A stretch of DNA of 40,515 nt from Paludibacteraceae bacterium (GTDB lineage: Bacteria > Bacteroidota > Bacteroidia > Bacteroidales > Paludibacteraceae), in contig JAKSNY010000007.1 of the NCBI GenBank assembly GCA_024399495.1, positions 1 through 40,515 of the forward strand, written 5' to 3'. The notes beneath the pieces are model-generated. The model was not told the origin of the DNA. It did not search any database and saw only the letters and a list, made by a program, of their open reading frames with translations. The position numbers and the translations under genes were made by a program. Shown here piece after piece: positions 588 to 37,987 of this stretch. Position 1 is the stretch's first letter; the number at the start of each line of letters is the position of its first letter.

Positions 588-660
588 GATTCTTCGTTCC
601 GCTTCGCTCTACTCAGAATGACGGAGAAAGTCATACATCATACATCTATACATCATACAT
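588..660. repeat. Intergenic palindrome remnant and CATACAT heptamers
   Basis: Positions 588-619 hold an imperfect palindrome (ATTCT at 589-593, AGAAT at 615-619, with a CG/TTCG-rich middle) of the kind scattered between bacterial genes. It is followed by CATACAT units at 632-638, 639-645 and 654-660, with one 8-nt variant between. The same heptamer recurs in four perfect copies at 16907-16934. No gene or clear promoter is visible in this 150-nt spacer between xerC and hpf. Confidence 0.7.
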
Positions 661-690
661 AAAAACAACCCCTTACACGATAGCAGTATG

Positions 691-1572
691 TTATTTTCTT
701 GGATGTGCCTTGCTGTATATTTGCATCATCTGTTCAAAAGATGTGTGGGTATATATCTGTGTCGCCGCCAAATTGGCATGTCCTAACAGTTCCTTTACAG
801 CGTTTATTTCAGCCCCGGAGTTGAGCAATGCACCTGCAAAAGTGTGCCTCATAACGTGCGGACTGCGTTTTGTGAGAGACGATACACAACCCATACTCTC
901 TGTAACAATTCTGTATATAAGCTGAGGATAGGCTTTCTCTCCTTTGTCTGTCACTATAAAATAGGTGGTGTCGCCAAAAACCTCATTCTTTAGAGCAATG
1001 TATTTTTGTGCTTTCTCCTTTAGTATATCACTGATAGGAATCACCCGCTCCTTACCACCTTTACCCGTTACTTGCAAAGTTAGTGAAAAAAAATTAAAAT
1101 CGCAATCTTTTATTGAAATTAATTCAGCCCTACGTATGCCTGTGTCGTACAGCAGTTCCAGTACCATATCGTTCCTCGATGCTGTGAAGTCCCCATCTAT
1201 CGGCTTGCTGCTCAACACTTCGTCCACTTCGCTCTCCCTAAAGAATATAGGTAGCGGCTTTGGTGTCTTTAATGCCGTTATCTTGACCATCGGGTCAATA
1301 AACTCATTATCACACTTTTTTATATACTTAAAAAAGCTGCGTAAAGATGATAATTTTCTGTTCACCGATGTGGAGCAAATGCTGTTCTCTTTCAGTGACA
1401 TAATCCAATCTCTTACATAAACACTCTTGGTATCAGTAAGTTCAGAAACACCATAAGTGTTCTGCAGGAATACTTGGAATTGCTCCAAATCCCTTTTATA
1501 CGCCTCTGCCGTCAGATTAGAGTATCGCTTTTGGTGGATAATGTACTCGATGTAATCCTCAACTTTACTCAT
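691..1572 (-). CDS. xerC: Tyrosine recombinase XerC/XerD family
   Basis: This 293-residue site-specific recombinase has the length and two-domain plan of XerC/XerD, which resolve chromosome dimers at dif with FtsK. The SAM-like N-terminal domain (about 1-90) starts with VEDYIEYIIHQKRYSNLTAEAYKRDL-type sequence. The catalytic domain carries Arg in DTGIRRAEL, Lys in TGKGGKER, the HVMRH box, LLGHANLAATQIYTH with the second His, and a nucleophile Tyr in that last motif. The gene is preceded by 54 nt that include five TTTTCAA-type heptamers (1591-1625) just after the carbonic anhydrase stop. Its position next to hpf favours the housekeeping XerC over a mobile integrase, and no attachment site is seen. 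XerC versus XerD cannot be settled from sequence alone. Confidence 0.9.
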   Translation of the reverse strand: MSKVEDYIEYIIHQKRYSNLTAEAYKRDLEQFQVFLQNTYGVSELTDTKSVYVRDWIMSLKENSICSTSVNRKLSSLRSFFKYIKKCDNEFIDPMVKITALKTPKPLPIFFRESEVDEVLSSKPIDGDFTASRNDMVLELLYDTGIRRAELISIKDCDFNFFSLTLQVTGKGGKERVIPISDILKEKAQKYIALKNEVFGDTTYFIVTDKGEKAYPQLIYRIVTESMGCVSSLTKRSPHVMRHTFAGALLNSGAEINAVKELLGHANLAATQIYTHTSFEQMMQIYSKAHPRK

Positions 1573-1590
1573 TACTACGTAATTCGTGAA

Positions 1591-1625
1591 TTTTCAATTT
1601 TCCATTTTCAATTTTCAATTTTCAA
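1591..1625. repeat. Five tandem TTTTCAA heptamers
   Basis: The units are TTTTCAA, TTTTCCA, TTTTCAA, TTTTCAA, TTTTCAA, perfectly in 7-nt register. The block begins one base beyond the stop codon of the carbonic anhydrase gene (read on the minus strand). It fills most of the spacer before xerC. Confidence 0.9.
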
Positions 1626-1626
1626 T

Positions 1627-2139
1627 TCATTTATACCACGATGCGTACATTGCATAGTTATGGGCTATCTTTTGGTTAATCTCCTTAGCCTGTTCAGGTG
1701 ACACCTCTTTAACCTGTTTGGCTGGTACACCTGCCCAAATGGTGCCTGCCGGAACCTGAGTATTGCTTAATACTAATGCCCCCGCTGCAATAATGGCACC
1801 CTCGCCTACGACGGCACCGTCAAGAACGGTGGCACCCATACCTACAAGTGCATAATCACAGATTTTGGCTCCGTGAATTGTAACATTGTGTCCTACAGAC
1901 ACGTAGTCTCCAATCTCAACAACTGATTTTTGGTAAAGCGTATGTAGCACCGCTCCGTCCTGAATGTTTACATGATTACCAATGGTTATGGTGTTTACAT
2001 CACCACGTAACACTGTGCCAAACCATATACTGCAACCGTCACCAATGGTGGTGTCGCCAATAATCACCGCATTGTCGGCAAGAAAACAATCATTGCCTAT
2101 TTTTGGGGTGAACCCCCGTACAGATTTAATTATAGCCAT
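1627..2139 (-). CDS. Gamma-class carbonic anhydrase family protein (left-handed beta-helix)
   Basis: This 170-residue protein is built of hexapeptide repeats ([LIV]-G-x-x-x-x), as in the gamma carbonic anhydrase/PaaY/YrdA family of trimeric left-handed beta-helices. Three likely metal-binding histidines are visible in VLHT, VGHN and TIHG, in the spacing of the Cam-type zinc site. The C-terminal helix (about 145-170) is typical. Family members hydrate CO2 or act on CoA thioesters, and many have no proven substrate, so the exact reaction is open. The start 13 nt after the thioredoxin-like gene suggests one transcript. Confidence 0.9.
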   Translation of the reverse strand: MAIIKSVRGFTPKIGNDCFLADNAVIIGDTTIGDGCSIWFGTVLRGDVNTITIGNHVNIQDGAVLHTLYQKSVVEIGDYVSVGHNVTIHGAKICDYALVGMGATVLDGAVVGEGAIIAAGALVLSNTQVPAGTIWAGVPAKQVKEVSPEQAKEINQKIAHNYAMYASWYK

Positions 2140-11082: not shown

Positions 11083-11114
11083 CAAAGATACAAAATCTAT
11101 TTTGCTTTTGCAAG
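11083..11114 (-). promoter_or_regulatory. Promoter of the DUF1599-tpiA-porZ operon, inside the end of the amylase gene
   Basis: The -7 TATCTTTG (11083-11090) is a perfect match; the -33 is CTTG (11111-11114) at 20 nt. The -33 and spacer lie in the last codons of the upstream GH13 gene. The -7 box ends 9 nt before the ATG at 11073, so the transcript would be almost leaderless. Confidence 0.68.
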
Positions 11115-13496
11115 CGTAAGCACCTCAACTCCATTTGCAGGTACGTTTACACTCAATACATTTTTATCTAAAGAGAATTCACATCCTAAGTTAGTTTTGT
11201 ACTCCTTGTTTTCCAATATCTTAGGCAACAGAATCTGAATATTCTTACTCTCCTTGCCTTTATTGAAAACCGCTATGGCAATATCTCCAAAGTAATTTCT
11301 GGCGTATGCCCAAGTGGTGTCATCAAGACGTAACTCTATAAAGTCACCGTACATAAGAGGCATACTGCTTCTTCTAAGTTTGGCAATGGTGGAAACAGAT
11401 TTAAGAACCTGCTTCTCATACTTGTTAAGGCTATCGTCAAACCTCATCATACGGCGGCAGTCGGGGTCATTTGCACCTGCCATACCTATCTCATCGCCGT
11501 AGAATATTACGGGAACACCAGGAATGGTGAGGTTAAATGCGTTAAGTTGAACCAACTTGTTATATGCAGTGGTGTCTGTAACACTAATATCACGTAGCCA
11601 GCCAGCCGCTTTTGTGTCTTCGTCATAACGCACATCACCCGATGCAAAGCATATAAAGCGAGCCCTGTCGTGATTTCCTGATATGTAGCCCATAAGATTG
11701 TGGCTTCCATACACTTTAAGGCTCATGTTAAGAGTATTGCTTATTCTACGCAGACTTTGTCCCTCTACTGCAAATACGTTGGAGGCATCGTCAGATACGT
11801 TAAAGTCAAATTGACCGTTAAGCATACCTGAATTTACATAACTGCTGATAAGTTTAGGACTTCCGTAAGACTCTCCTATTTGGTAAATCTCCTTATGCTC
11901 AGGTATTTCCACCTCTTTTTTTAGTTTATAGGTGAGTGTTCTCCAAAAATGCTCTTGAACATGCTTGCAGGCATCGTGACGGAAGCCGTCAAGGTCAAAT
12001 TTGGTTATCCAAGCCACAGCGGAGTCTGTCATGGTCTGTACTATCTCCTCTCTTGAGTAGTCAAGAGTAGGCAAGAACTCATCAAACCATGTGGTAAGAC
12101 GGTGGTCATTCCAGCGCTCAAGATTTTTAGTGCCGTCCGGCAGTATGAGAGGGGTGCAGATGGTAGGGTCATTCTTAAACATAGGGTGTTCCTTATGAAC
12201 ATGGTTAGCCACGTAGTCCATAATAACGTTAAGCCCGTGTTTGTGAGCGTTATTCACCATTTCAAGCATCTCATCATCTGTTCCAAAACGGAAATCAATC
12301 TTGCTTGATGATATAGGCCAATATCCATGATAGCCTGAGAATTTGGTCTTAACAGGATATTCCATTCCGGAATACGGCTCCAGCGGATTCTGCACGATAG
12401 GTGAAATCCAAATTGTGCCTACACCCAAAGAGTCAAAATATCCCGATTCTATCTTATCTGATACGCCCTTTAAATCACCGCCAAAATAATCCACTTTAGG
12501 GTTTACATCGGGGCGGTTCATAGGGTGGTTGTTATCCTTGTTGCCATCAGAGAAGCGGTCAATCATAAGGGAGTAAAGCACTTGGCTGTGCTTGTCAAAA
12601 CGGTCTATCATTTTAGCGTCAGAAACCACCTTGCCAAATTCAAGCGGAACCAGAACGTCATTTGAAATGCCGTACTTATTGGCGGCAATAATCCTTATAT
12701 ATGAGCGTTTTACACTATTGGCCTCGTCTGGAATGTGTATCTCTATATTGTCATCAAACTGCTTTACAAAGCGTGTAGGCAGTTTGTAGTTCTGCCAGTA
12801 AGCGTAAACCTGCTCCACATCATTGTAGGTGTCAAGAGTAAATGTTTTTTTATCAAAACTCCCCGATGTAAGCACCGGTGCCTTGTCTTGAGTGCCTTGT
12901 ATATGCAGTATAGAGTTAAACTTGCCCGAATTGTTATCCACCATTTCAGGGTTGGTTTCATCGTGATTCCAATCGCCGTCACGGACTAACTGATAAAGGT
13001 ATGTTCCCGGACTTATGCGGAACGTAACCTCATAGATGCCGTCGCTGTTAAGTGTAAGGTCAGGGTGAAATGATGGTACCCAATCATTCATCTGTCCCGC
13101 AAGCTGAACCCTGTTCCAACGCTTGCCGTGCGGATTATAGCGGAATGTGTACTCACCTTCATCTGTGCGTTTGCACAGAATGCTGTAAGGCACCCCCTTA
13201 ACCCAAATGGCAATGTTCTGTAACTGATGTGCCTTGCCTAAATAAACGTTTATTTGGCTCTTATCTTCGCTCAGATGTGCAATAATCATCTTGTTATCAC
13301 ACGATATAGAGTCTATTTGGTTTGTGTCAAGCACATAATCTTTAGTCAAAATCACATTTGGACCAGGCTCCAATGTTACAAACGAGTTGAGCCCCATATC
13401 CTCTGTGTTGTCTGCTGGAAGCCCCAATTCATACTGTGTGCAGCCTGACAGAAAGGTTGCTAAAACTAAAAAAATCGCTAACTTAAATATTTTCAT
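11097..13496 (-). CDS. GH13 alpha-amylase family surface lipoprotein (SusG-like role)
   Basis: The protein has 799 residues from the chosen start. A lipoprotein signal ends at LSGC (Cys19). Residues about 119-200 resemble the CBM48/glycogen-binding Ig fold (LAGQMNDWVP...DGIYEVTF..GTYLYQLVRDG), followed by a second beta domain to about 290. The GH13 barrel has region I DYVANH (about 427), region II GFRHDACKH with the nucleophile Asp (about 508), region III GES with the acid Glu (about 542) and region IV GNHD (about 610). A C-terminal beta domain ends the protein. It should cut alpha-1,4-glucans at the cell surface or outer membrane. The upstream ATG at 13568 only adds residues translated from intergenic heptamer repeats and would hide the signal peptide. 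It is the last gene of the lacI-susA-MFS run. Confidence 0.9.
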   Translation of the reverse strand: MKIFKLAIFLVLATFLSGCTQYELGLPADNTEDMGLNSFVTLEPGPNVILTKDYVLDTNQIDSISCDNKMIIAHLSEDKSQINVYLGKAHQLQNIAIWVKGVPYSILCKRTDEGEYTFRYNPHGKRWNRVQLAGQMNDWVPSFHPDLTLNSDGIYEVTFRISPGTYLYQLVRDGDWNHDETNPEMVDNNSGKFNSILHIQGTQDKAPVLTSGSFDKKTFTLDTYNDVEQVYAYWQNYKLPTRFVKQFDDNIEIHIPDEANSVKRSYIRIIAANKYGISNDVLVPLEFGKVVSDAKMIDRFDKHSQVLYSLMIDRFSDGNKDNNHPMNRPDVNPKVDYFGGDLKGVSDKIESGYFDSLGVGTIWISPIVQNPLEPYSGMEYPVKTKFSGYHGYWPISSSKIDFRFGTDDEMLEMVNNAHKHGLNVIMDYVANHVHKEHPMFKNDPTICTPLILPDGTKNLERWNDHRLTTWFDEFLPTLDYSREEIVQTMTDSAVAWITKFDLDGFRHDACKHVQEHFWRTLTYKLKKEVEIPEHKEIYQIGESYGSPKLISSYVNSGMLNGQFDFNVSDDASNVFAVEGQSLRRISNTLNMSLKVYGSHNLMGYISGNHDRARFICFASGDVRYDEDTKAAGWLRDISVTDTTAYNKLVQLNAFNLTIPGVPVIFYGDEIGMAGANDPDCRRMMRFDDSLNKYEKQVLKSVSTIAKLRRSSMPLMYGDFIELRLDDTTWAYARNYFGDIAIAVFNKGKESKNIQILLPKILENKEYKTNLGCEFSLDKNVLSVNVPANGVEVLTLAKAK

Positions 13497-13510
13497 GATA
13501 TTATTATTTA

Positions 13511-13573
13511 GTTGACAGTTGACAGTTGACAGTTGACAGTGATTAATAGTCCACTGTCCATTGTCCACTGTCC
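13511..13573. repeat. GTTGACA x4 and ACTGTCC x3 heptamer blocks
   Basis: Four perfect GTTGACA units occupy 13511-13538. After a 14-nt interruption come ACTGTCC, ATTGTCC, ACTGTCC (13553-13573). The blocks are partly inverted to each other: GACAGTG (13535-13541) and CACTGTC (13552-13558) could form a 7-bp hairpin with a 10-nt loop. They fill the spacer between the MFS gene and the amylase lipoprotein. Confidence 0.9.
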
Positions 13574-13584
13574 ACTTATTATAA

Positions 13585-14913
13585 TTACTCCTTAATTAAT
13601 ATAACACTTATTGCTCCCAATATCAGCAGCACTCCTGCCACTGCAAGCATGGCAAGTTGAGTGCCAACAACACTGAGGATAAGACCACCGCAAATAGCGG
13701 CAACTATCTGCGGCAGGCATATTGTACAATTAAAAAGTCCAAGGTAATAACCCATATTGTCACCTTTCAGTGAGTTTGTAAGGATAGTGAACGGAATGGC
13801 AAGCATGGCAGCCCATGTTGCACCTACCAATGCGTAGCTTACGAACAATATGTATTTATTTGTTACAAACAATATGGAGATAAACCCTATTGCTCCAATA
13901 ATCAGGCTTATGGCGTAAGCCCACTTGTTACCTAACTTGTTCTCTATGGCAGGTAGCAGGGCAGCCCAAATAAGCGAGCCAATAGCCTGAACGGCAAATA
14001 CCACGCCAACCCAGTTTCCTGCATCTTGAAATGCAATGTCTTTGGTCTCAAAGCCACTCCAGCCAAAACAACTTGAGGCGATGGCACCGTTTGAGTATGT
14101 CCACATATACATAAATGCAGCCCAGCAGAAAAACTGAACCAAACCTACAGTCCAAAAAGTGGAAGGGGCGTTCTTTAGCAGACTGAAGAAATTTGCTTCC
14201 CTCTTTTTTTCTGTACTCTCTGCATTATCGGTAATTCCATGGAACTCTTTGTATTCTTGAGGATTAAGTTCTTTAACTGTTACAAATGTATAAATTACGC
14301 ATAAAATCAGTATAGCGGCACCAATATAGAAACTCCACTTAACAGAATCAGGGATTACACCCTCAGGGGCTGTGTTTGCTATGCCTATCCAGGTAAAGAA
14401 TATAGGGAATAGATAACCTACAAGAGAACCTGCATTGCATAAGAATGACTGAATGGAATAAGCCAATCCTTTCTGCTCATTGCTAACCATATCGCCAACC
14501 ATCATCTTAAACGGCTGCATGGCTATGTTTATTGATGTGTCAAGAAACATAAGAGAGAACAGTCCGAACCACATGGCGGCATTGAGTCCAAGAAACAGAC
14601 CTTGTGCAAATGTGAAATTACCTGCATTAGGGAGCAGTGCCATAACCGCTACTGCGATTATCGCACCTACAAGCAGGTATGGCTTACGTCTGCCTATGGA
14701 GCACCATGTCTTGTCTGAATATTTGCCTACTAAAGGTTGAACTAACATACCCATAAGTGGGGGTAGTATCCAAAAGAAACTGAGAGTGTGAGGGTCTGCC
14801 CCAAGGGTGGCAAAAATCCTGCTTATATTGGCACTTTGCAGTGCGTATGCAATCTGCACTCCAAAAAATCCGAAACTTATATTAAATAGTTTTAAAAAAG
14901 ATTGGTTTTTCAT
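13585..14913 (-). CDS. MFS sugar transporter (SLC45/GPH-like, probable maltose/maltodextrin)
   Basis: This 442-residue protein has about 12 hydrophobic membrane segments. The early part, SFGFFGVQIAYALQSANISRIF and PLVGKYSDKTWCSIGRRKPYLLVGA, carries the MFS loop 2-3 signature (D/G-x-x-x-D-R/K-x-G-R-R) in the form shared with sucrose/maltose-type SLC45 relatives. It sits in the inner membrane. Its position between two GH13 enzymes makes uptake of maltose or maltodextrins the best guess. It takes the role that SusB/inner-membrane transport functions fill in other sus loci. The substrate is inferred from context only. Confidence 0.85.
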   Translation of the reverse strand: MKNQSFLKLFNISFGFFGVQIAYALQSANISRIFATLGADPHTLSFFWILPPLMGMLVQPLVGKYSDKTWCSIGRRKPYLLVGAIIAVAVMALLPNAGNFTFAQGLFLGLNAAMWFGLFSLMFLDTSINIAMQPFKMMVGDMVSNEQKGLAYSIQSFLCNAGSLVGYLFPIFFTWIGIANTAPEGVIPDSVKWSFYIGAAILILCVIYTFVTVKELNPQEYKEFHGITDNAESTEKKREANFFSLLKNAPSTFWTVGLVQFFCWAAFMYMWTYSNGAIASSCFGWSGFETKDIAFQDAGNWVGVVFAVQAIGSLIWAALLPAIENKLGNKWAYAISLIIGAIGFISILFVTNKYILFVSYALVGATWAAMLAIPFTILTNSLKGDNMGYYLGLFNCTICLPQIVAAICGGLILSVVGTQLAMLAVAGVLLILGAISVILIKE

Positions 14914-14943
14914 AATATTTTTTTATTCGTTTCACTCATAAAA

Positions 14944-15008
14944 AAGGGTCAAGGTTAAAGGGTCAGGGGTTAAGATTAAAGATACTTGTCCCTTGATACT
15001 TGTCCCCT
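14944..15008. repeat. Heptamer-periodic spacer between susA-like and MFS genes
   Basis: Units AAGGGTC, AAGGTTA, AAGGGTC and an 8-nt AGGGGTTA run from 14944 to 14972. Then a 14-nt unit, GATACTTGTCCCTT, is repeated with one change (14981-14994 and 14995-15008). The period is again 7 or a multiple of 7. Confidence 0.8.
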
Positions 15009-15012
15009 GTCC

Positions 15013-16869
15013 CTAAAAATTGATTTCATCAATTTTTATCACGTACGCTGTTTTGGCTGGGATGGAAAGTTTGGTGGTAAAGTCTATCTTTTTACCTGTA
15101 ACAACCTCTGTTCCTGATTCAGAACCTTCAAATAACTCCTTGTATCTGTCAAAACTTATAAGTTGGTCATTTACACTATTGTTAAATACCATAATAACCC
15201 TGCTCTTGTCATCGTAACGTGAGAATACATAGATTCCGTCGTATGGTATGAATTGGGTCATCTTGCCTGTTTGTAGGGCAGTGCAGCCCTTGCGGAAGTT
15301 AAGTAACTTACGCATATAGTTGAATATCTCATTTTCTTCTGCCGTTCTGCCTTTTGCTGTAAAGGCATTGCGGTCATCATCTTTCCAACCGCCTGGAAAA
15401 TCAAAACGGTAGCCTTCATAGTTGCCCGGTATGCCGTCAAGCATTATCTCATCACCGGAATAAATCTGTGGAAATCCACGTGTGGTAAGTAGCATTGCGA
15501 TGCCCATCTTATACTTATTCACGTCACGGTTAACAGCACCTGACATGCGGTCAATATCGTGGTTATCAATGAAATTCATAATATTGTTTACATTGGGGTA
15601 TGCAAAATCCTGTGCATAGTGGGCATAGAATTTAGCCATACCGTGGTCCCAATCGTCACGCTCATTGAACGCCTCCTGCAGTTTGTCTTTAAGAACAAAA
15701 TCCATAACACTTGGCAGGTTGGAGTCAAAACCGTCCTTGTTATTGTTGCCCGATTGGTAATAGGCTATCTCAAGCGGAGATTTAACCCAGCATTCACCCA
15801 CGATGTTTATGTTAGGATATTCACTACGGAATGTCTTCATAAATTCACTTGCCACCTTAATATTATTATAAGGGTATGTGTCAACCCTTATTCCGTCTGC
15901 ACCGCCATACTCAAGCCACCAAATATAAACTTGGCTTAGGTATTTGAATAGTAGCGGATTCTCTAAATTAAGGTCAGGCATATTGTATGAGAACCAACCT
16001 TTTTCCAGAATCTCACGGTCAAGTTTGGCTGCATGAGGGTCTGTCCATGCGGTCATTCTATAGTTGGAACCGGTGTAGTTAGGCCAGGTGTGATACCAGT
16101 CTTTTGCAGGCAGGTCTTTTGTCCAATAACTTGCAGTGCCGCAATGGTTTGGAACTACATCAAGAATAAGTTTAAGTCCCAATGCGTGACAGCTGTCGGC
16201 AAGAGCCTTGTATAACTCATTTGTACCCAAACGTGGGTCCACCTTAAAGTAATCGCCCGTAGCGTAGTGGTGGTAAGAGTACTGACTGTCATTATTATCA
16301 AAGAAAGGTGTAATCCAAAGTGCAGTGCACCCCAAATCCTTAATGTAAGGCAAATGGTCTATAACACCCTGAATATCACCTCCGTGGCGTTTGCCTAAAT
16401 CAGAGCGGTCAACACCTTGTATGTAACCATTTATGCTGTCGTTACTGTAATCGCCGTTAGCAAAACGGTCCGGCATAAGCAGATATACCGCATCTTCAGG
16501 ACCAAAACTAACCCTCTGACGGCTTTCCTGCTTGCGTGCATTTAATGTATAAGCCCATTTTGCAATCTTCTTTTTGCCGTTTTTGAACACTATATTAAAT
16601 GTACCAGGCTTGGTGGAGGGGTCAATGTTTAGGAATACGAACAGATAATTTGGATTGTCTGTGATTTCTGTTTTGGTAATGGTTACACCTGGGTGGTTTA
16701 TCTCTACAGATGCATTCTGAATGTCTGTTCCATAGCATAACAATTGCAGTTCAGGATTCTCCATCCCAACCCACCAACTTATAGGCTCCACCTTGCTCAC
16801 ACTCTGCTTAGCGGCAAATGCCGCTACACTTGCGGTCATCAGTAATAATAAGGTAAATGTTTTTTTCAT
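15013..16869 (-). CDS. susA: Periplasmic GH13 neopullulanase/alpha-amylase (SusA-like)
   Basis: This 618-residue protein matches SusA in length and plan. A cleavable signal peptide (about 1-20, ending AFA) lacks a lipobox, so it is periplasmic. An N-terminal Ig-like domain (about 23-112) precedes the barrel. Catalytic regions are I DVVPNH (237-242), II GIRVDTYPY with nucleophile Asp330, III GEC with acid Glu359 and IV FIDNHD ending at Asp438. A C-terminal beta domain covers about 540-618. SusA-type enzymes degrade oligosaccharides imported by SusCD to maltose and glucose, with some pullulan activity. It follows lacI by 67 nt of repeat-rich spacer without a good promoter, so cotranscription with lacI is likely. 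Confidence 0.93.
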   Translation of the reverse strand: MKKTFTLLLLMTASVAAFAAKQSVSKVEPISWWVGMENPELQLLCYGTDIQNASVEINHPGVTITKTEITDNPNYLFVFLNIDPSTKPGTFNIVFKNGKKKIAKWAYTLNARKQESRQRVSFGPEDAVYLLMPDRFANGDYSNDSINGYIQGVDRSDLGKRHGGDIQGVIDHLPYIKDLGCTALWITPFFDNNDSQYSYHHYATGDYFKVDPRLGTNELYKALADSCHALGLKLILDVVPNHCGTASYWTKDLPAKDWYHTWPNYTGSNYRMTAWTDPHAAKLDREILEKGWFSYNMPDLNLENPLLFKYLSQVYIWWLEYGGADGIRVDTYPYNNIKVASEFMKTFRSEYPNINIVGECWVKSPLEIAYYQSGNNNKDGFDSNLPSVMDFVLKDKLQEAFNERDDWDHGMAKFYAHYAQDFAYPNVNNIMNFIDNHDIDRMSGAVNRDVNKYKMGIAMLLTTRGFPQIYSGDEIMLDGIPGNYEGYRFDFPGGWKDDDRNAFTAKGRTAEENEIFNYMRKLLNFRKGCTALQTGKMTQFIPYDGIYVFSRYDDKSRVIMVFNNSVNDQLISFDRYKELFEGSESGTEVVTGKKIDFTTKLSIPAKTAYVIKIDEINF

Positions 16870-16891
16870 ATATAATTGTTTATTCGGTTAA

Positions 16892-16934
16892 TTGTCCCTT
16901 GACCCTCATACATCATACATCATACATCATACAT
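16892..16934. repeat. TTGTCCC/TTGACCC and CATACAT x4 heptamers
   Basis: TTGTCCC (16892-16898) and TTGACCC (16899-16905) are followed by four perfect CATACAT units (16907-16934). The block ends two bases before the lacI stop codon on the minus strand. The CATACAT unit is shared with 632-660, about 16 kb away. Confidence 0.9.
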
Positions 16935-16936
16935 CC

Positions 16937-17944
16937 TCACTTAGTACTCTCCCTCAATATCAACCTTGTAGGAATAGTCTCCTGTGTAATAGGCAGAGAG
17001 TCCTTGTTCTCTATTCTGGCAATAAGAAGTTTGCACGCCTCAACCCCCATCTCATATCCGTTCTGCTCTACAGTAGTTATGGTGGGGTCTGAAATCTGAG
17101 CCACTATACCGTCTCCAAATCCGCAAACAGACACATCTTGCGGAATTTTCTTTCCGGCAAGTTTTAAGGCATATATTATGCCCGATGCCGTATCGTCATT
17201 AACTGCAAAGAACGCATCGGGTAGGGAGTTTGACTTAATTATCTTTTCTGTAAGTGTAATAGCATTATCTCTATTGTCACACTCAAAAATAAGAGAATCG
17301 TCAACCATTATACCATTTGCCTTAATGGCATCTAAGTATCCGTTTGTGCGGTCTTTTGCTATTGTAATATTATTGCCGGTTCTAAATAACGCTATTTTTC
17401 TGCATCCTGATTTGACAAGGTAGTCCACTGCCTGAAAAGCACCGGAATAGTCATCTGCCACTACGTGGTCTGTTACCAAATCGGGGCAGAAGCGGTCGTA
17501 AAATACAAGAGGAGTGCCGTCTTCCATAAGTTCTTTGTAGTGAGAAAAATCCTTGACCTCTTTTGATATGGATGCCAGCACACCCGATACATGAGCGGAC
17601 ATAAGAGTCTCTATGCATTTCACTTCTCTATAATAGTTCTCTGACGATTGACATATTACCACCGTATATCCTTTATCATTTGCAGTGTCCTCGATACCCG
17701 AAATCACGGAGGAGAAGAAATGGTGTACGATTTCAGGAATTATTACACCTATTAAATTAGAGTGCCGCATTTTTAAACTCAGGGCAATGGCATTGGGCTT
17801 ATAGTGATGCTCCTGTGCAAAAGACTGTACCTTGTCTCTGGTTGCCTTGCTTATTTCTGTATTCCCGTTCAATGCCCTTGATACGGTGGAAATAGAGATG
17901 TTTAACGCTTTTGCTATGTCTTTTATTGTGATTTGTGATTTCAT
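16937..17944 (-). CDS. LacI family transcriptional regulator of the starch locus
   Basis: This 335-residue protein has the LacI/GalR plan. The N-terminal helix-turn-helix is TIKDIAKALNISISTVSRALNG (about 4-25), followed by the hinge helix region NAIALSLKMRHSNLIGVIIPE. A periplasmic-binding-protein-like effector domain (about 60-335) contains VVADDYSGAFQAVDYL, PDAFFAVNDDTASGIIYAL and VCGFGDG. It would bind a sugar effector and an operator with a central CG. It is divergent from susC and next to a candidate operator at 18047-18064, so control of both PUL arms is likely. In B. thetaiotaomicron the sus locus uses a different type of regulator, SusR. Confidence 0.93.
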   Translation of the reverse strand: MKSQITIKDIAKALNISISTVSRALNGNTEISKATRDKVQSFAQEHHYKPNAIALSLKMRHSNLIGVIIPEIVHHFFSSVISGIEDTANDKGYTVVICQSSENYYREVKCIETLMSAHVSGVLASISKEVKDFSHYKELMEDGTPLVFYDRFCPDLVTDHVVADDYSGAFQAVDYLVKSGCRKIALFRTGNNITIAKDRTNGYLDAIKANGIMVDDSLIFECDNRDNAITLTEKIIKSNSLPDAFFAVNDDTASGIIYALKLAGKKIPQDVSVCGFGDGIVAQISDPTITTVEQNGYEMGVEACKLLIARIENKDSLPITQETIPTRLILRESTK

Positions 17945-17974
17945 AGTCTGACAATAACACTCTTCTTCAACTTA

Positions 17975-21157: not shown

Positions 21158-21175
21158 TTATAAAATACAAGAGAT

Positions 21176-22849
21176 ATGAAAAAGTCTATTATATATACGT
21201 TAATAATTTCGTTGGGGCTTTCTCTAACTTCATGCAAGGATTTCTTAGAGGAGAAGGCATACGGCAACCCGTCATCAGAGGAACTTTTACAAGATCCTGA
21301 GAATATGGTTAGGCTTGTAGGACAGGCATACGCAGAACTTAAGTGGTTGCACGACCACTGGGGATACTGGGGCTTGAACACTCTTACATCAGATGAGGCG
21401 CGTTGCCCGGTACGTAATCCTGGAAATAACTGGGAGGATAATAAGTATTGGCAGAATCTTAACTCTATGAAATGGGATCAAGATGGTAAGTCTTTTGAGA
21501 ATGTGTGGGATAAATGTATTGCGGGTGCCACTTTGTGTAATAAGATTCTGAAGCAAATATCTGCATATCAGGGTGATGTAAAGGAGTCTGATTACAAGAG
21601 ATATACGGCAGAGTTGGCTGTACTTAGAAGTTACTACTACTTTACAATGTTTGACCTCTTTGGCAGAATCCCTTATACAGAAGAGTTCCCATCAAGTGAG
21701 ACTGCACAGTTCCCATTGCTTGAGGTACAGGATGTTTGGACTCATTTGGTTAATTGCTTGGAGGCTAATACCCCTAATCTGCCAGCCATTTCTCCTGCAG
21801 AAAAGGCGGCTAATTACGGACGTGCCACCCAGGCTTTGAGTTACGGACTTCTTGCCCGTCTTTATTTGAATGCGGAAAGTTATGGAATACAAAATGTAAG
21901 CGAACCGTATGTTAAATGTGCCAAGTATTGCAAAAAGATTATTGACAGCAGGTCATACTCATTAGAGTCTAATTTCTTTAGTAACTTTGCAGTATATAAC
22001 GAGAACAGTGCAGAAAATATATTTGTAATAGTTGAGAATGGTAATGCCGCATTTGACTATCAAGATGTAGCAGGCGGTATGTGTAACAAATTACGTATAA
22101 ATCTTCTTACACAACATTATGCTTTTCTAACAGTATATGGGCTTTTGGAGAAACCTTGGAACGGTTTTGCTGCGTCTCCGCAATACTTGGAGTTGTTTGA
22201 GACAACAGACCATCGTGGTCCTTGCCCTGAAAGTGCAGGTACAGATATAGATTTTCAAAATGTAAACACCAAATACGGTTGGTTCCTTGGTCCGGTAAAG
22301 GATGAAAACGGTAAAATTATGGTAGATGAGAATGGTCTTGAAGTTGTTATTGTTAAGAACTTTAAAAATCAGGCTGATGCCACTTGGAACGATGGTGCCC
22401 GTTGTATGAAATATGAGACAGAAAAAAATTCTACTGTAAATAAGTATAGCGAGAATGACTTTGTGCTTATGCGTTATGCGGAGATAGTGCTTATGTATGC
22501 AGAGGCTTGTTTAAGAGACCCACAGGCTGGAGATGGGAGTTATGTAAAACCAGACCTTGATTTAATTCGTAGTCGTGTTGGTGCATCAAGCATAAGTAAT
22601 TATACTCTTAATACAGATAGAGCCAAACAAAACTCAATACTTAATGAGCGTGCCCGTGAGTTTGCATGGGAGAACCTTCGCCGTAGAGACCTTATACGTT
22701 TTGGCGTATATACAGACCCATCTTATAAATGGGAATTCAAGAATATCAGCCCGGGTGAGGACTTTAGAAAATGGTTCCCTATTCCTAAACACATGTTGGA
22801 GGTTCATGCCGGGGATAGAGTTCCTTGGACTCAAAACGAGGGTTATTAA
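21176..22849 (+). CDS. susD: SusD/RagB family surface glycan-binding lipoprotein
   Basis: This 557-residue protein has a lipoprotein signal ending at SLTSC (Cys20), followed by KDFLEEK. The all-helical TPR-bearing SusD fold is recognisable from NPSSEELLQDPENMVRLVGQAYAEL, AELAVLRSYYYFTMFDLFGRIPYTEE, YGLLARLYLNAE and the family's C-terminal RRRDLIRFG and FPIPKHML segments. It caps the SusC barrel and delivers substrate. It is cotranscribed with susC (18-nt gap) and the next lipoprotein (32-nt gap). Confidence 0.96.
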   Translation: MKKSIIYTLIISLGLSLTSCKDFLEEKAYGNPSSEELLQDPENMVRLVGQAYAELKWLHDHWGYWGLNTLTSDEARCPVRNPGNNWEDNKYWQNLNSMKWDQDGKSFENVWDKCIAGATLCNKILKQISAYQGDVKESDYKRYTAELAVLRSYYYFTMFDLFGRIPYTEEFPSSETAQFPLLEVQDVWTHLVNCLEANTPNLPAISPAEKAANYGRATQALSYGLLARLYLNAESYGIQNVSEPYVKCAKYCKKIIDSRSYSLESNFFSNFAVYNENSAENIFVIVENGNAAFDYQDVAGGMCNKLRINLLTQHYAFLTVYGLLEKPWNGFAASPQYLELFETTDHRGPCPESAGTDIDFQNVNTKYGWFLGPVKDENGKIMVDENGLEVVIVKNFKNQADATWNDGARCMKYETEKNSTVNKYSENDFVLMRYAEIVLMYAEACLRDPQAGDGSYVKPDLDLIRSRVGASSISNYTLNTDRAKQNSILNERAREFAWENLRRRDLIRFGVYTDPSYKWEFKNISPGEDFRKWFPIPKHMLEVHAGDRVPWTQNEGY

Positions 22850-26036: not shown

Positions 26037-27341
26037 ATGCAGTTTCTACAGTTAATGCTTGCGTTGTCGTTTCTTGTGATAATTCACGAGTTCGGACATT
26101 TTATTACGGCAAAGATATTTGGTGTAAGGGTGGAGAAATTTTACCTGTTCTTTAACCCTTGGTTTACACTATTTAAGTTTAAGCCTAAAAATTCAGATAC
26201 GGAGTACGGCATAGGGTGGCTTCCGTTTGGAGGCTACGTAAAGCTTGCCGGCATGATAGATGAGAGCCTTGATACAGAGCAAATGGCAAAACCTGCTGAG
26301 CCTTGGGAGTTCCGCTCCAAACCTGCGTGGCAGAGGCTTATAATTATGAGTGCCGGCGTAATTATGAACCTTATAGGGGCTATGGTCATTTATGCCATGA
26401 TACTGTACTCCAATGGTGAGCAATATGTAAAGTTAAGCGATGCCTCAATGGGTATGAATTTCTCTGAGGTGGCACAAGACCAAGGTTTCCGTGACGGCGA
26501 TATTCTGCTTATGGCAGATGGGGAAGAGTTGGAGGCTATGGACGAGGAGAATGTACGTAAGATACTAAACGCCTCTACCGTAACTGTATTGCGAGGCGGA
26601 GAGCGTAAGACCCTTACTATGAGCCGTACATTTATGCAGGATTTAATTGCCTCAAAAGAGGGTTTCGCGGACTTTAGATTGCCGTTTGTGGTAAAAGAGG
26701 TAATAGAGTCCACACCTGCGGCGGAATCGGGGCTTATGGCAAATGACAGCCTTGTAAGCATAAATGATTCCACACTTGTGGCGTGGAGTGATTTTACCCC
26801 TGTACTAAAAGCAAATAAAAATGTTCCGCTTAATTTAGGCTTATATAGAAACGGAGCGTTTATGACCACCGTTCTTACCCCCGATAGCGTAGGCAAGATA
26901 GGGGTGTATGTAAAATCCATCTACGATATTTACCCTGTAACGGAGCATAAGTATGGTTTCTGGGAGTCTTTCCCAGCCGGCATAAAGAAAGGGTTTATAG
27001 CATTTACAGGCTATGGCAGTGACTTTAAGATGGTGTTTACCAAAGAGGGTGCGGAGAACCTTGGTGGTTTTGGCACCATTACCAAACTGTTCCCCGATGA
27101 GATAAATTGGACTTATTTCTGGTATATTACCGCATACCTGTCTGTTATTCTTGCGTTTATGAATATTCTGCCAATACCTGCCCTTGACGGTGGTCATATA
27201 ATATTCCTGCTTTACGAGATTATTACCCGCCGTAAGCTTAGCCAGGAGTTTATGATTACAATGCAGAAGATAGGGCTGTTGCTGCTGATATTCTTACTCC
27301 TGTATGCTAATGGAATGGACATAATCAGAGCGTTTAATTAA
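26037..27341 (+). CDS. rseP: Site-2 intramembrane zinc protease RseP
   Basis: This 434-residue M50 protease has the active-site HEFGH (17-21) in the first membrane helix and the third metal ligand in IPALDGGH near residue 385 in a late helix. At least one PDZ region is visible between (about 200-290, with STPAAESGLMANDSLVSINDS); another PDZ-like stretch precedes it. The early GYVKLAGM segment is typical. RseP-type proteases cut single-pass membrane proteins such as anti-sigma factors and remnant signal peptides. It is transcribed alone from a promoter nested in the upstream terminator. Heptamer repeats start at the first base after the stop. Confidence 0.95.
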   Translation: MQFLQLMLALSFLVIIHEFGHFITAKIFGVRVEKFYLFFNPWFTLFKFKPKNSDTEYGIGWLPFGGYVKLAGMIDESLDTEQMAKPAEPWEFRSKPAWQRLIIMSAGVIMNLIGAMVIYAMILYSNGEQYVKLSDASMGMNFSEVAQDQGFRDGDILLMADGEELEAMDEENVRKILNASTVTVLRGGERKTLTMSRTFMQDLIASKEGFADFRLPFVVKEVIESTPAAESGLMANDSLVSINDSTLVAWSDFTPVLKANKNVPLNLGLYRNGAFMTTVLTPDSVGKIGVYVKSIYDIYPVTEHKYGFWESFPAGIKKGFIAFTGYGSDFKMVFTKEGAENLGGFGTITKLFPDEINWTYFWYITAYLSVILAFMNILPIPALDGGHIIFLLYEIITRRKLSQEFMITMQKIGLLLLIFLLLYANGMDIIRAFN

Positions 27342-27461
27342 TTGAAAGTTGAAAATTGACTGTGAAACTGACCGAAGGTAAAGTTCCCTCCTAACCTCCC
27401 TAAAGGGAGGAACCGATTGTAAAATCTATTAAATTTCCACTTTCAACTTTCCACTTTCAAC
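27342..27461. repeat. Convergent heptamer repeat blocks between rseP and dxr
   Basis: The left block begins immediately after the rseP stop: TTGAAAG, TTGAAAA, TTGACTG, TGAAACT, GACCGAA, GGTAAAG (27342-27383). The right block is TTTCCAC, TTTCAAC, TTTCCAC, TTTCAAC (27434-27461) and contains the dxr stop codon (27457-27459). GAAAGTTGAAA on the left is the exact inverse of TTTCAACTTTC on the right. Between them CCTCCC-TAAA-GGGAGG (27395-27410) forms a hairpin. No gene is seen; the structure may end both convergent transcripts. Confidence 0.88.
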
Positions 27462-28596
27462 TATATATGAACTTTCGTGTTTCGGAGTCCGTATTTACGT
27501 AGTCATCGTACGTGGGGTGGGTGATATGGGGAACGGAAGTGAGAGCGTTTTCTATTATGTCAGACATCTGTAAGAATCCAACTTCACCACGCAGGAAAGC
27601 GGCATTCGCCACCTCATTGGCGGCATTCAGAATGCATGGAGCGTTGCCACCCATCTCTATAGCCTTGTAGGCAAGGGCAAGATTACGGAACTTGTTTAAA
27701 TCTGGCTTCTCAAATGTAAGAGAACCTAAATCAAACAGATTAACTCTGTTATAGTCATTAGGTATGCGAATAGGATATGAGAGTGCGTACTGAATAGGTA
27801 TTCTCATATCGGGTACACCTAACTGAGCCTTAATGGAGCCGTCAGCAAACTGAACTGCGGAGTGAACTATGGATTGCGGGTGAACCACCACCTCTATATT
27901 TTTTACATCTACATTAAAGAGCCATTTTGCCTCTATAACCTCAAACCCCTTGTTTATCATAGATGCGGAGTCTATAGTGATTTTGGCACCCATATTCCAA
28001 TTTGGGTGTTTCAGAGCATCGGCGGCAGTAACGGTACGCAGATAGTCTATATCTTTAGTGCGGAACGGACCACCCGATGCGGTAAGCAGAATCTTCTCCA
28101 CACTATTATTTCTCTCACCCTCCAAACATTGGAAAATGGCGGAATGCTCAGAATCCACAGGTAGAATGGCACTTCCGTATTGTTCCTGAAGGCTGCACAT
28201 AAGGTCTCCTGCTACCACCATAGTCTCTTTATTGGCAAGAGCTATGGTCTTTCCTTTTTTTAGTGCAGAGATGGTTGGTTTAAGCCCGGCATAGCCCACC
28301 ATTGCGGTAAGCACCATATCCACGCCGTCCATTGCCACCACATCGCAAACGCTGTCAATGCCTGAAAGTACTTTTACATCGGTGTTACTTAGGGCATTGC
28401 AAACATCGGGGTAATTATCCTCCTTAACCATAACGGCATACTTAGGACGGAACTGCAACGCTTGCTTTATAAGCAGGTCTGTGTTATTGTATGCGGTAAT
28501 GGCAAAAACCTCAAACTTATCAGGGTTATCTGCTATAACCTGCAGTGTCTGAGTGCCTATAGAGCCTGTAGAGCCTAATATTGCTATGCTTTTCAT
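27457..28596 (-). CDS. dxr: 1-deoxy-D-xylulose 5-phosphate reductoisomerase
   Basis: This 379-residue protein is full length for Dxr, which converts DXP to MEP in the non-mevalonate isoprenoid pathway using NADPH and a divalent metal. It shows the nucleotide-binding start SIAILGSTGSIGTQTL, the core ALANKETMVVAGDL, metal/substrate ligands in PVDSEHSAIFQCL, the SGGPFR loop, and the C-terminal segments HPNWNMGAKITIDSASMINKG and VVHPQSIVHS. It begins at the last base of the upstream M23-like gene, so the two are coupled. Its stop codon lies in a heptamer repeat block. Confidence 0.97.
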   Translation of the reverse strand: MKSIAILGSTGSIGTQTLQVIADNPDKFEVFAITAYNNTDLLIKQALQFRPKYAVMVKEDNYPDVCNALSNTDVKVLSGIDSVCDVVAMDGVDMVLTAMVGYAGLKPTISALKKGKTIALANKETMVVAGDLMCSLQEQYGSAILPVDSEHSAIFQCLEGERNNSVEKILLTASGGPFRTKDIDYLRTVTAADALKHPNWNMGAKITIDSASMINKGFEVIEAKWLFNVDVKNIEVVVHPQSIVHSAVQFADGSIKAQLGVPDMRIPIQYALSYPIRIPNDYNRVNLFDLGSLTFEKPDLNKFRNLALAYKAIEMGGNAPCILNAANEVANAAFLRGEVGFLQMSDIIENALTSVPHITHPTYDDYVNTDSETRKFIYS

Positions 28597-29723: not shown

Positions 29724-29733
29724 CGAGTGCAAA

Positions 29734-29804
29734 ATTCTGGAGGGGTGCCAATTGGCTGAGATCATACCCTTATAACCTGAACCGGACAATGCCGGCGTAG
29801 GAAT
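29734..29804 (+). promoter_or_regulatory. TPP riboswitch (THI element) aptamer
   Basis: The conserved thi-box parts appear in order: GGGGTGCC (29742-29749), GGCTGAGA (29754-29761), ACCC, AACCTGA (29774-29780), ACCGGACAATGCCGGCGTAGG. P1 can form from ATTC(T) at 29734 and (G)GAAT ending at 29804. It precedes the thiamine operon directly. Thiamine pyrophosphate binding is expected to lower expression. Confidence 0.95.
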
Positions 29805-29816
29805 CAGTATATTTAC

Positions 29817-29863
29817 TTAGCATTGCGCTATTTCCTCCACTAAAAAATTAAACGCAATGTTAG
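29817..29863 (+). promoter_or_regulatory. Start-codon-sequestering hairpin of thiS (likely riboswitch expression platform)
   Basis: CATTGCG (29821-29827) is the exact inverse of CGCAATG (29853-29859), which contains the thiS ATG (29857-29859). The stem extends to 11 pairs (two G-U) from 29817 to 29863. The 25-nt loop contains CCTCCA (29834-29839), complementary to TGGAGG (29738-29743) within the aptamer, so an alternative pairing is possible. No T-run follows, so control of translation is favoured over termination. Confidence 0.65.
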
Positions 29864-35564: not shown

Positions 35565-35571
35565 TAGACAA

Positions 35572-36282
35572 ATGCTTACTATAGAAGAGAAAGAGAGATT
35601 CTTGCGTCATATTATTTTTAAGGATGTGGGAATTGAAGGACAAGAGAAATTAAAAGACAGCAGTGTGCTGGTTATCGGAGCAGGGGGGCTTGGATCTCCT
35701 GTGCTTCTTTATCTGGCTGCCGCAGGGGTGGGGCGTATAGGTATTGTAGATGATGATATAGTAAGTATAGATAATCTTCAGCGTCAGATTCTTTATAAAA
35801 CAGAGGATATAGGATTGCTTAAATGCCAATGTGCCGCAAAAAGATTGCTTGATCTTAACCCCAATGTTGATATTACAACCTACAACAAGAGACTTGATGA
35901 TGATAACTGTCGGGAAATTGTATCGGGATATGATATTGTGGTGGATGCTACTGATAATATGCGGTCCAGATATGTTATAAGTGGGGCTTGCTGTTCTATG
36001 AAAAAGATAATGGTACACGGAAGTGTTTGTGAAAATAAAGGTTACGTGGCATTGCTTACGTGTGAAAATAAGAATACATCATACGAGGCTTTGTTCCCAA
36101 ATGATGGTGAAACAGAACCTTTTATGCAACCAACAGGCATTATAGGCACATTGCCGGGAATCATAGGAACAATACAAGCCATGACTACTGTAAAATATAT
36201 AATCGGGATACCGGTGTTGGTGAATCAATTGTTGGTGTTTGATGCAGAGTCAATGGATTTTTTAAAACTTAATGTAAGTTGA
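35572..36282 (+). CDS. thiF: ThiS adenylyltransferase ThiF (E1-like), lacking the zinc cysteines
   Basis: This 236-residue E1-like enzyme has the nucleotide-binding GAGGLGSPV (36-44), Asp/Arg/Lys positions in IVDDDIVSIDNLQRQILY and DIGLLKCQCAAKRL, and DATDN (125-129). The usual CxxC of ThiF/MoeB is replaced (SYEALFP instead of a YRCLxP-type motif). The Cys expected before the GIIGTLPGIIGTIQA motif is missing (FMQPTG), and there is no C-terminal CxxC. The ATG at 35572 is 7 nt after the thiH stop and yields the normal N-terminus; an upstream start would overlap thiH by 160 nt. It is the last gene of the operon. Confidence 0.9.
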   Translation: MLTIEEKERFLRHIIFKDVGIEGQEKLKDSSVLVIGAGGLGSPVLLYLAAAGVGRIGIVDDDIVSIDNLQRQILYKTEDIGLLKCQCAAKRLLDLNPNVDITTYNKRLDDDNCREIVSGYDIVVDATDNMRSRYVISGACCSMKKIMVHGSVCENKGYVALLTCENKNTSYEALFPNDGETEPFMQPTGIIGTLPGIIGTIQAMTTVKYIIGIPVLVNQLLVFDAESMDFLKLNVS

Positions 36283-36320
36283 GAATACTCAAAAAATCAA
36301 ACAAAAATCAATCCTAAAAT

Positions 36321-36352
36321 ATTGTGTATGTATAAAATTAATTGTACCTTTG
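36321..36352 (+). promoter_or_regulatory. Promoter of gltX
   Basis: The -7 TACCTTTG (36345-36352) fits the consensus; -33 is ATTG (36321-36324) at 20 nt. The predicted start near 36358 lies after the upstream in-frame ATG (36342), which supports the later gltX start at 36432. Confidence 0.65.
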
Positions 36353-36431
36353 CCCGATTGAGTATATAACTTTATCAGACGTTGCGTATCTTTATTACAA
36401 CTTTGAGAATAAAATAAAAGATTGTTTGATT

Positions 36432-37949
36432 ATGGGAAAAGTGAGAGTGCGTTTTGCACCAAGTCCAACAGGTCCGCTACATATTGGCGGTGTGCGTACA
36501 GCGTTATATAACTATCTGTTTGCCAAACAGAACGGCGGTGATATGATATTGCGTATAGAGGATACTGACTCCACACGTTTTGTGCCTGGAGCGGAGAAAT
36601 ATATAATAGAGGCACTTACTTGGCTTGGAATAAAGTTTGATGAGGGTATAAAAGAGGGAGCGGCAACAGTACGCCAAAGTGAGCGTAAGGAGATTTACCG
36701 TAAATATGTGGATTATCTGCTTGATAATGGCAAGGCATACATTGCTTTTGACACCCCACAGGAACTTGATGCCAAACGTCAGGAGATTAAGAATTTTCAA
36801 TACGATGCCACCACACGTATGTCTATGCGTAACTCACTTACATTGGGCAGTGAAGAGACCAAGAGGCTTATAGCAGAGGGTACGCCATACGTAGTGCGTT
36901 GCCTTATAACCCCTAATGAGAATATTACACTGGAGGATATGATACGTGGTACTGTCACCATAAATTCCTCTATATTAGATGATAAGGTGCTGTATAAGAG
37001 TGCCGATAACCTGCCTACCTATCACCTTGCCAATATAGTTGATGACCACCTGATGGGCATCACCCACGTAATCAGGGGTGAGGAGTGGCTGCCGTCAGCA
37101 CCGCTGCATGTATTGCTTTACAGGCATTTAGGCTGGGCAGACACGATGCCGCAGTTTGCACATCTTCCACTGCTTCTTAAACCCGACGGGAACGGAAAAC
37201 TAAGCAAGCGTGACGGAGACCGCCTTGGATTCCCTGTGTTCCCGCTTGATTGGTTTGACCCTAAATCGGGAGAGAAATCATCGGGTTACCGAGAGGCAGG
37301 GTATTTTCCTGAGGCTGTGGTAAATTTTCTTGCACTGCTTGGCTGGCATGCAGAGGGCGATGAGGAGTTTTTTACTATGGATGAGCTTATCAAGCGTTTC
37401 TCTTTCAGCCGTGTAAGTAAATCGGGTGCTAAGTTTGACTATGAAAAATGCAAGTGGTTCAATCATCAGTACCTTATGAACAAAGATGATAAGACTCTTG
37501 CAGAACTGATTAAGCCTCAGATACTTGCCACATACGGTATAGATTGCCCTATGGATAAGTTAATAACGGCGGTAGGCTATACAAAGAATCGTTGCACATT
37601 CCCTGCTGATTTTTGGAATCAAATAAGCTTTTTCTTTATAGCCCCTACATCTTACGATGAAAAGACTGTGCAGAAACGCTGGAAAGAGAGCTCACCACAA
37701 GATATGCGTGAACTTTATGCCGTGTTGGAGGCAATAGACGATTTCTCACTTGAGAATACAGAAAAGGTTGTAATGCAATGGATTGCAGATAAGGAGTACA
37801 ATACAGGCACCATTATGAACGCCTTCCGTCTATGCCTTGTAGGAGAGGGTAAAGGTCCGCACATGTTTGAGATAACATCACTACTTGGCAAGGCTGAAAC
37901 TTTAAAGAGGCTTGATAGAGCAATTAAAGAGTTGAAAGTTGAAAATTGA
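36432..37949 (+). CDS. gltX: Glutamyl-tRNA synthetase
   Basis: The 505-residue class I synthetase (from the chosen start) begins [20 protein letters not shown] with the HIGH-type motif and carries the KMSKS equivalent KLSKRDG. It also has [15 protein letters not shown] and [13 protein letters not shown], as in bacterial GluRS. It charges tRNA-Glu (discrimination against tRNA-Gln is not predictable here). The last residues, ELKVEN, and the stop are encoded by TTGAAAG-type heptamer repeats that continue to 3 nt before the next gene. Confidence 0.97.
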
Positions 37950-37987
37950 AAGTTGACTGTGAAACTGACTGAAAGTAAAGTTGAAAG
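37932..37987. repeat. Eight heptamers bridging gltX and the next gene
   Basis: Exactly 56 nt divide into TTGAAAG, TTGAAAA, TTGAAAG, TTGACTG, TGAAACT, GACTGAA, AGTAAAG, TTGAAAG. All but the third and last are shared in order with the block at 27342-27383, with two base changes. The block includes the gltX stop (37947-37949) and ends 3 nt before the next ATG. Confidence 0.92.

Follow-up and report, generated by a model that had tools for sequence, protein, structure and literature searches.

The stretch analysed here, hereafter the window, is a contig of 40,515 nucleotides (JAKSNY010000007.1, our C24) from a 2.08-Mb draft genome (handle G000; 82.5% complete) of a gut bacterium, a Paludibacteraceae-like member of the Bacteroidales, and it encodes the type IX secretion system protein PorZ, SusC and a SusD-like protein. 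The protein at 15013-16869 shares 91% identity with one from a Paludibacteraceae metagenome-assembled genome from horse faeces, the nearest named relative. Several gaps between the genes of the window carry short tandem arrays of seven-base units, which are the subject of this work (Table 1). An earlier note on this DNA had listed such arrays, and both Tandem Repeats Finder (TRF) and direct reading located them at nearly all of the positions given. The exceptions were 16892-16905, where only about two degenerate units are present, and 37957-37987, which holds no clean array; the arrays at 14985-15014 and 27340-27359 were weaker but present, and that at 37930-37956, which had been taken as purely intergenic, overlaps the 3' end of the glutamyl-tRNA synthetase open reading frame (ORF; 36342-37949).

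Table 1. Heptamer arrays of the window and the state of the same gap in the close relative G010 (R and Y orientations as defined in the text).
Positions	Strand	Feature	Detected by	Same gap in G010
631..660	-	RATGTAT array, Y orientation (CATACAT on +), one interruption; between two minus-strand ORFs	TRF	
1589..1627	-	GTTGAMA-family array, Y orientation (TTTTCAA on +); adjoins right-hand ORF boundary at 1627	TRF	8-base GGTGATGC/GAATCACC arrays
13510..13540	+	R array, AGTTGAC x4.4; left arm of convergent pair	TRF	no arrays (whole pair, 13510-13576)
13549..13576	-	Y array, GTCCAYT x4; right arm, paired with 13510-13540	TRF	no arrays (whole pair)
14944..14970	+	degenerate R array, AAGGGTC / AAGGTTA	direct reading	no arrays
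14985..15014	-	Y array, CTTGTCC / 14-nt unit; partner of 14944-14970	TRF, weaker	
16887..16905	-	weak Y array, TTGTCCC / TTGACCC, about 2 units	direct reading	
16906..16935	-	CATACAT Y array, 4.3 units	TRF	array kept, one extra unit
27340..27360	+	R array, TTGAAAG/GTTGAAA; left arm of convergent pair, convergent genes either side	TRF, weaker	AGTTGAC arrays and different filler (whole pair, 27340-27462)
27395..27410	.	near-palindrome CCTCCCTAAAGGGAGG in pair spacer	direct reading	
27434..27462	-	Y array, TTTCCAC/TTTCAAC alternating; right arm, paired with 27340-27360	TRF	AGTTGAC arrays and different filler (whole pair)
37930..37956	+	R array, TTGAAAG; overlaps glutamyl-tRNA synthetase ORF 3' end	TRF (clean array to 37956)	

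The host genome was sampled over 837,485 bases (40 stretches and the window, about 40% of the genome), in which genes were called by a simple ORF rule that leaves start positions approximate, and noncoding arrays were counted at lags 4 to 15 wherever at least 11 of 12 positions matched at one lag. This gave 135 noncoding arrays at lag 7, 101 at its double, lag 14, 21 at lag 8 and at most six at any other lag; coding DNA held 33 arrays at lag 7, so that the excess is mostly noncoding. When the intergenic DNA was taken by itself (358 pieces of at least 30 nt, 64 kb in total), 124 lag-7 arrays were found in 95 of the pieces, and lag 8, with 18 arrays, came second once lag 14 was set aside. Dinucleotide shuffles of the same DNA gave a mean of 0.4 lag-7 arrays (maximum 2 in 20 shuffles), which indicated that the excess is not a property of AT-rich DNA. 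The window agrees on its own scale, with three exact period-7 runs in 2364 bp of intergenic DNA (hand-picked ORFs) against a shuffle mean of 0.02. Array density differs strongly between contigs: TRF rows with a period of 7, 14 or 21 number 47 in C12:1-200 kb and 13 in C1:1-200 kb.

The arrays are built from few units. Direct reading of the window revealed that GTTGACA, TTGAAAG, TTTTCAA, ACTGTCC, TTTCCAC/TTTCAAC and TTGTCCC are one-strand variants of a single degenerate heptamer, A-R-K-K-R-A-M, to which AAGGGTC is close, and that only CATACAT stands apart. In the larger sample, 133 of the 135 noncoding lag-7 arrays contain two or more units from the GTTGAMA-like, RATGTAT or AAGGGWC families, the other two being near variants of GTTGAMA; these are neither the G-quadruplex-type unit GGGNATC nor TAACTGA. 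Array boundaries are also constrained. GTTGAMA arrays start in one phase on their outer, gene-side end in 62 of 72 cases, with the inner end spread over phases, and the base before the outer A of these single-phase arrays is T in 45 of 62. Since a preceding A would often have lengthened the array, the fairer count is 45 of the 59 non-A cases, for which base counts predict 46% (binomial p 2e-6). RATGTAT arrays start at ATGTATG in 39 of 59 cases and end in ATGTATGA in 41 of 59, most commonly at a length of 29 nt, about four units. The earlier observation of period-7 repeats is thus confirmed in part: the genome-wide and shuffled period distributions, which it had named as what could refute it, showed a strong excess at 7 in the portion sampled, and the description of the units as unrelated fails. 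Its interpretation, a mechanism that fixes length and not sequence, is likewise partly supported, as unit length is nearly constant (seven, with a minor eight-base class) but sequence is strongly constrained, by its restriction to three families, by strand polarity within the gap and, in the main family, by a common outer phase.

The clearest regularity concerns strand. We denote as R the strand in which G outnumbers C (GTTGAAA, ATGTATG, AAGGGAC) and as Y its complement, and treat as neighbours arrays less than 200 bp apart and each at least 20 nt long. Read from left to right, neighbouring arrays in the 837-kb sample are ordered RY, that is converging, in 25 cases, RR in one, YY in one and YR in none. 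A 397-kb part obtained after the rule had been stated gave RY 11, YR 0 and YY 1, and relaxing the detection in the first 440 kb yielded RY 18, YR 0, RR 4 and YY 4. When all periods from 5 to 11 were labelled by G>C, two YR pairs appeared in this genome, both with five-base arrays. Polarity also holds relative to the genes, with R lying near the left gene and Y near the right gene in 115 of 139 arrays, and this side rule is obeyed by the majority in all four gene arrangements (++ 60/70, -- 32/39, -+ 12/16, +- 11/14), by 72 of the 86 lone arrays and, more weakly, by period-8 arrays (13/18).

The two arms of a pair do not match one another more than chance would have them do. Judged by class labels, the arms belong to different families in 14 of the 25 RY pairs; as these labels separate the pair at C1:179396 in spite of its complementary arms, the measured complementarity was used instead, and 11 pairs (44%) contain, while 14 lack, at least 10 nt of continuous complementarity when one mismatch is tolerated. 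R and Y arrays paired at random were complementary in 43% of 400 draws, which argues that a hairpin is not what the pairs have in common; each side of a gap seems to receive its own array independently.

Sequences between and beside the arrays recur as well. BLAST matches of at least 25 nt place the inner flanks of 93 of 139 arrays in one similarity group, an upper figure because matches running through neighbouring arrays also link flanks. One composite is asymmetric (ATGTATG block, ACTTTCAGTCAGCTAACGCAGT filler, TTTCAAC block) and was found in both orientations (C12:88329 and C7:29760 versus C12:179654), and each of the five exact copies of CCTCCCTAAAGGGAGG in the sampled part of the genome has a heptamer array no more than 120 bp away.

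Separately, a dispersed element roughly 170 nt long (GGAGCCGTAGGCGA ... GAGGTTAAAATG), which carries directly oriented ATGTATG units at each end, was found at C12:120202-120385 (L017:202-385) and C6:20624-20803, and for one copy the predicted RNA fold was better than 200 of 200 shuffles (z -3.5). GGAGCCGTAGGCGA has 15 occurrences in the 837 kb, 11 of them near heptamer arrays.

Polarity was also observed outside this genome. Among 77 loci from other genomes, chiefly further Bacteroidota (L054-L130; R defined by G>C alone), period-7 pairs were ordered RY in 10 cases, YR in none, RR in five and YY in one, with units that include AAGTTTT, GAAGAAT and GGAGGAA; the RY pairs of L078, L092, L095 and L103, with units and spacing in common, are not independent of one another, that of L125 is weak, and the four loci from array-poor congeners contributed no pair. 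Period-8 pairs in these loci gave RY 1, YR 1 and RR 4, and stretches of congeners gave, at period 7, RY 4, YR 0, RR 1 and YY 1. Arms were complementary in 9 of the 10 RY pairs of L054-L130, so the free mixing of arms may be special to the present clade. A strict convergent pattern matched 5 of 395 Bacteroidota genomes (five sites in this genome, six in four others), and a strict divergent pattern of equal degeneracy, which is not its exact mirror, matched none. Further away, a Nostoc plasmid (NZ_CP026696.1, 27429-27502; L171:7380-7453) carries a convergent AGTTGAC/GTCCACT pair between two genes that is 79% identical over 72 nt, across phyla, to window 13510-13581. Ten lag-7 arrays were found on two Nostoc plasmids (227 kb), of which nine were scorable, five for and four against the side rule, with no scored pair, and four patterns searched in viral contigs gave 0 matches each.

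Comparison with 15 congeners (G001-G015) revealed turnover of the arrays. The degenerate GTTGAMA pattern, which detects that unit family only and whose reversed control is uninformative because the unit is nearly mirror-symmetric, matched 273 times in this genome, 133 times in G001, 69-75 times in each of G002, G003, G010 and G012, and 0-5 times in the other ten, a sharp split of the 16 genus members into six rich and ten poor; family-wide, 39 of 61 genomes had a match, mostly few. Orthologous gaps were compared between the window plus C12:40-60 kb and five congeners. Of 13 gaps with arrays here and an alignable counterpart in G010, five have the same unit there, five have different units and three have no array, by our reading (in one of the five with different units, at window 27335, the unit is still a GTTGAMA-family variant and the filler differs). 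Total length in the five same-unit gaps differs by exactly 7 nt in three and by 11 in two, so that copy number, whose comparison between strains the earlier note had suggested, does change in seven-base steps; such exact differences are compatible with slippage acting later, but slippage would not have supplied more than 100 loci with the same units in the first place. Replacement is best seen at C12:52960, where this genome has GTTGAAA/TTTCAAC, G010 AAGGGAC-type arrays, G001 AGTTGAC with TTTTAAC, and G003 an eight-base GGTGAATC/GATTAACC pair, all four in the order R then Y, while G012 and G002 have no arrays. At C12:55975, removal of the array and one TA leaves a sequence that by eye resembles the gap of G003, as an insertion with TA on both sides would. 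A tract of about 96 nt (C12:47934-48030; L013:7934-8030) has counterparts at several places in congeners, at 82-98% identity among the matches listed.

Taken together, these facts call for a process that operates at gene junctions, controls strand and puts the same units in many places, and the pattern suggests directional insertion of DNA and not random copying slips. The reading that we tentatively favour, while remaining closely divided about it, is that the arrays are polar insertion marks or modules at gene junctions that later change copy number in seven-base steps. DNA modules would be inserted into the short gaps between genes, each beginning at one or both ends with a block of seven-base units, oriented so that the G-richer strand points away from the adjacent gene; the same units would be spread over the genome by the copying of a few module types, and slippage would afterwards alter copy number. 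This reading is based on period 7, the few families, convergent polarity, the outer phase, the recurring inner sequences, orthologous gaps that are array-free or refilled, and the 7-nt changes. We infer that insertion may proceed by copying of dispersed modules resembling repetitive extragenic palindromic (REP) elements or miniature inverted-repeat transposable elements (MITEs), that TA is probably a preferred site, and that one putative activity makes or recognises heptamer ends. Module copying explains the shared units, the common outer phase, the recurring inner sequences and the occurrence of one composite in both orientations.

Several observations weigh against this reading. Module copying leaves period 7 itself and the independence of the arms unexplained; 24 of 139 arrays break the side rule and 86 are lone; the spacers of RY pairs range from 0 to 149 nt, eight of the 25 being 17 nt or shorter, so that there is no fixed total element; the grouping of inner flanks is, as said, an upper figure; and target duplication is inconsistent between loci. 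The resemblance to MITEs is similarly mixed, as the arms converge yet 14 of 25 pairs have no 10-nt complementary stretch, and TA stands at both ends at one site by eye whereas other sites differ. In addition, Y1 transposases (Y1_Tnp) were not found in the six array-rich genus members, nor DDE_3 transposases in any of the 16 genus members searched; in the host draft, a search covering these two families gave no match to either. Across 31 genomes, none of the candidate array makers searched for (RVT_1, Ku, Y1_Tnp and DDE_3) tracks the arrays; because the six array-rich drafts are only 78-96% complete, single gene absences are weak.

Polarity and independent arms are most simply accounted for by strand-specific addition of repeats, in which a telomerase-like enzyme, using an internal or a single-stranded template, would extend free 3' ends at breaks in the gap with G-strand heptamers before the ends are joined head to head. 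This alternative, which we regard as unlikely overall, predicts convergent polarity, arrays that start in a fixed phase but end variably on the inner side, mutually independent arms, units that differ between species (as seen in small samples) and recurrent refilling of one gap with different units. A bacterial reverse transcriptase (RT) that makes tandem repeats in telomerase-like fashion, DRT10, has been described (preprint, PMC12632851), and strand-specific synthesis of this kind would give the polarity seen here; in the accessible part of that account, however, DRT10 belongs to a defence system and its product is a protein-primed cDNA with 9-nt repeats. Such addition does not predict recurring inner modules. 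An RT product of this type would also imply an RT in every array-rich genome, whereas RVT_1 is present in G000, G002 and G012 and was not found in array-bearing G001 (83% complete), G003 (95%) or G010 (80%), three of the six, so that the RT gene does not track the arrays; Ku was found in none of the 31 genomes. A broader version, in which bacteria of several phyla would cap or heal DNA ends in gaps with species-specific G-strand heptamers, leaving hundreds of head-to-head scars per genome that resemble telomere fusions, seems to us quite improbable.

Slippage combined with selection is a further alternative, and we doubt that it holds. Heptamers would expand anywhere, seven being the footprint of the polymerase (an idea of Mrazek 2007, as cited in the accessible part of Rehm et al. 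2015, PMC4692102), and selection would remove every orientation that harms a start or stop codon. The exact 7-nt length changes relative to G010 fit this account, and the R units AGTTGAA, AGTTGAC, AATTGAA and ATGTATG carry stop codons that their Y strands do not, so that an R array following a stop codon, or a Y array preceding a start codon, would be tolerated. Independent slippage, however, would not give three unit families for 133 of 135 arrays, and pure slippage, which explains the seven-base steps alone, is thereby ruled out as the source. The side rule is also seen between convergent genes (11/14), and it has been published, as far as the accessible text of Rehm et al. (2015) goes, for GGGAATC, which is stop-free on both strands; AGTGGAC and AAGGGAC are likewise stop-free on both strands, and in AAGGGTC it is the Y strand that carries a stop. 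Stop-codon supply is therefore excluded as a general account. Selection on gene ends may sharpen the polarity rule, but does not account for stop-free units or convergent gene pairs.

That selection has kept the pairs as hairpins, for terminating transcription or stabilising RNA, is very unlikely and fails as a general account, since the complementary arms of 11 of 25 pairs here and 9 of 10 RY pairs in L054-L130 have to be set against a frequency here no higher than random pairing gives, a majority of lone arrays, and the fact that a hairpin by itself does not forbid the order Y then R. Equally remote is the proposal, made for TAACTGA repeats, that the arrays are multivalent binding sites for a protein reading seven-base steps: the preferred length of about four units (29 nt) in RATGTAT arrays would suit it, but orthologous gaps between the same flanks lose arrays or change units, so that the supposed sites are not conserved.

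Short tandem arrays of heptamers, dispersed through noncoding DNA, are familiar from cyanobacteria as short tandemly repeated repetitive (STRR) sequences. The present arrays agree with repeats of this type and of that described in Xanthomonas by Rehm et al. (2015; PMC4692102) in having a mostly noncoding 7-nt excess, convergent pairs and nearness to the gene 5' of the G-rich strand. In the accessible part of the latter work, convergent GGGAATC pairs number 70 in Xcc and 75 in Xac, and arrays lie nearer the 5' neighbouring ORF whatever its direction, in Nostoc too; the GGGAATC and GGGGA(C/T)T repeats of Xanthomonas and Nostoc thus share with ours dispersed intergenic arrays of period 7, a preference for four units and the same strand polarity. 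They differ in consisting of one G-quadruplex-forming unit type, whereas here several units are mixed within pairs and change between congeners, in a flanking gene context described as stable, and in the small number of pairs in Nostoc; that part of the paper offers no mechanism for the polarity. The TAACTGA repeats of Beggiatoaceae, cyanobacteria and five Bacteroidetes (MacGregor 2015, PMC4679880) are, according to the accessible text, heptamer arrays that lie between genes and near start codons; in the BOGUAY genome and in Flexibacter litoralis, most share a single orientation relative to the start codon. They resemble ours in showing 7-nt indels between close strains and other heptamers in some of those gaps, but differ in unit, in their mixed orientations in a Microcystis sample and in their interpretation as binding sites, and no convergent-pair rule was found in that text. 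REP elements (GTAG/CGTC palindromes; PMC3733652, in the part accessible) are similarly short dispersed intergenic modules near ORF ends; palindromes here are fillers between arrays, the arrays themselves are tandem where a REP is a palindrome of 20-40 nt accompanied by a REP-associated tyrosine transposase (RAYT), and this genome has no Y1_Tnp (RAYT-type) match.

Because Rehm et al. described convergent pairs for one unit, the arrangement is partly known already; within the largely open-access literature searched, as far as its accessible text goes, no description was found of a polarity rule spanning several units, of independent arms or of unit replacement at one gap, which form the new part. 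As far as the literature compared tells, no origin has gained acceptance for the heptamer repeats catalogued in bacteria. The persistence of polarity across unit changes, the independence of the arms and the occurrence in Bacteroidota, Xanthomonas and Nostoc argue that the process controls strand and not sequence, which turns an old curiosity into a testable question, namely which enzyme makes or inserts the heptamers. The division of one genus into six array-rich and ten array-poor members provides a natural system for finding it.

Two other features of the window lie outside these arguments. A thiamine pyrophosphate (TPP) riboswitch is located at 29731-29820, upstream of thiamine biosynthesis genes (a thiD/thiE-like ORF and thiC), and the region 11097-22849, in which an amylase-family ORF (11097-13568) lies near the SusC and SusD-like ORFs, is a possible starch-utilisation cluster.

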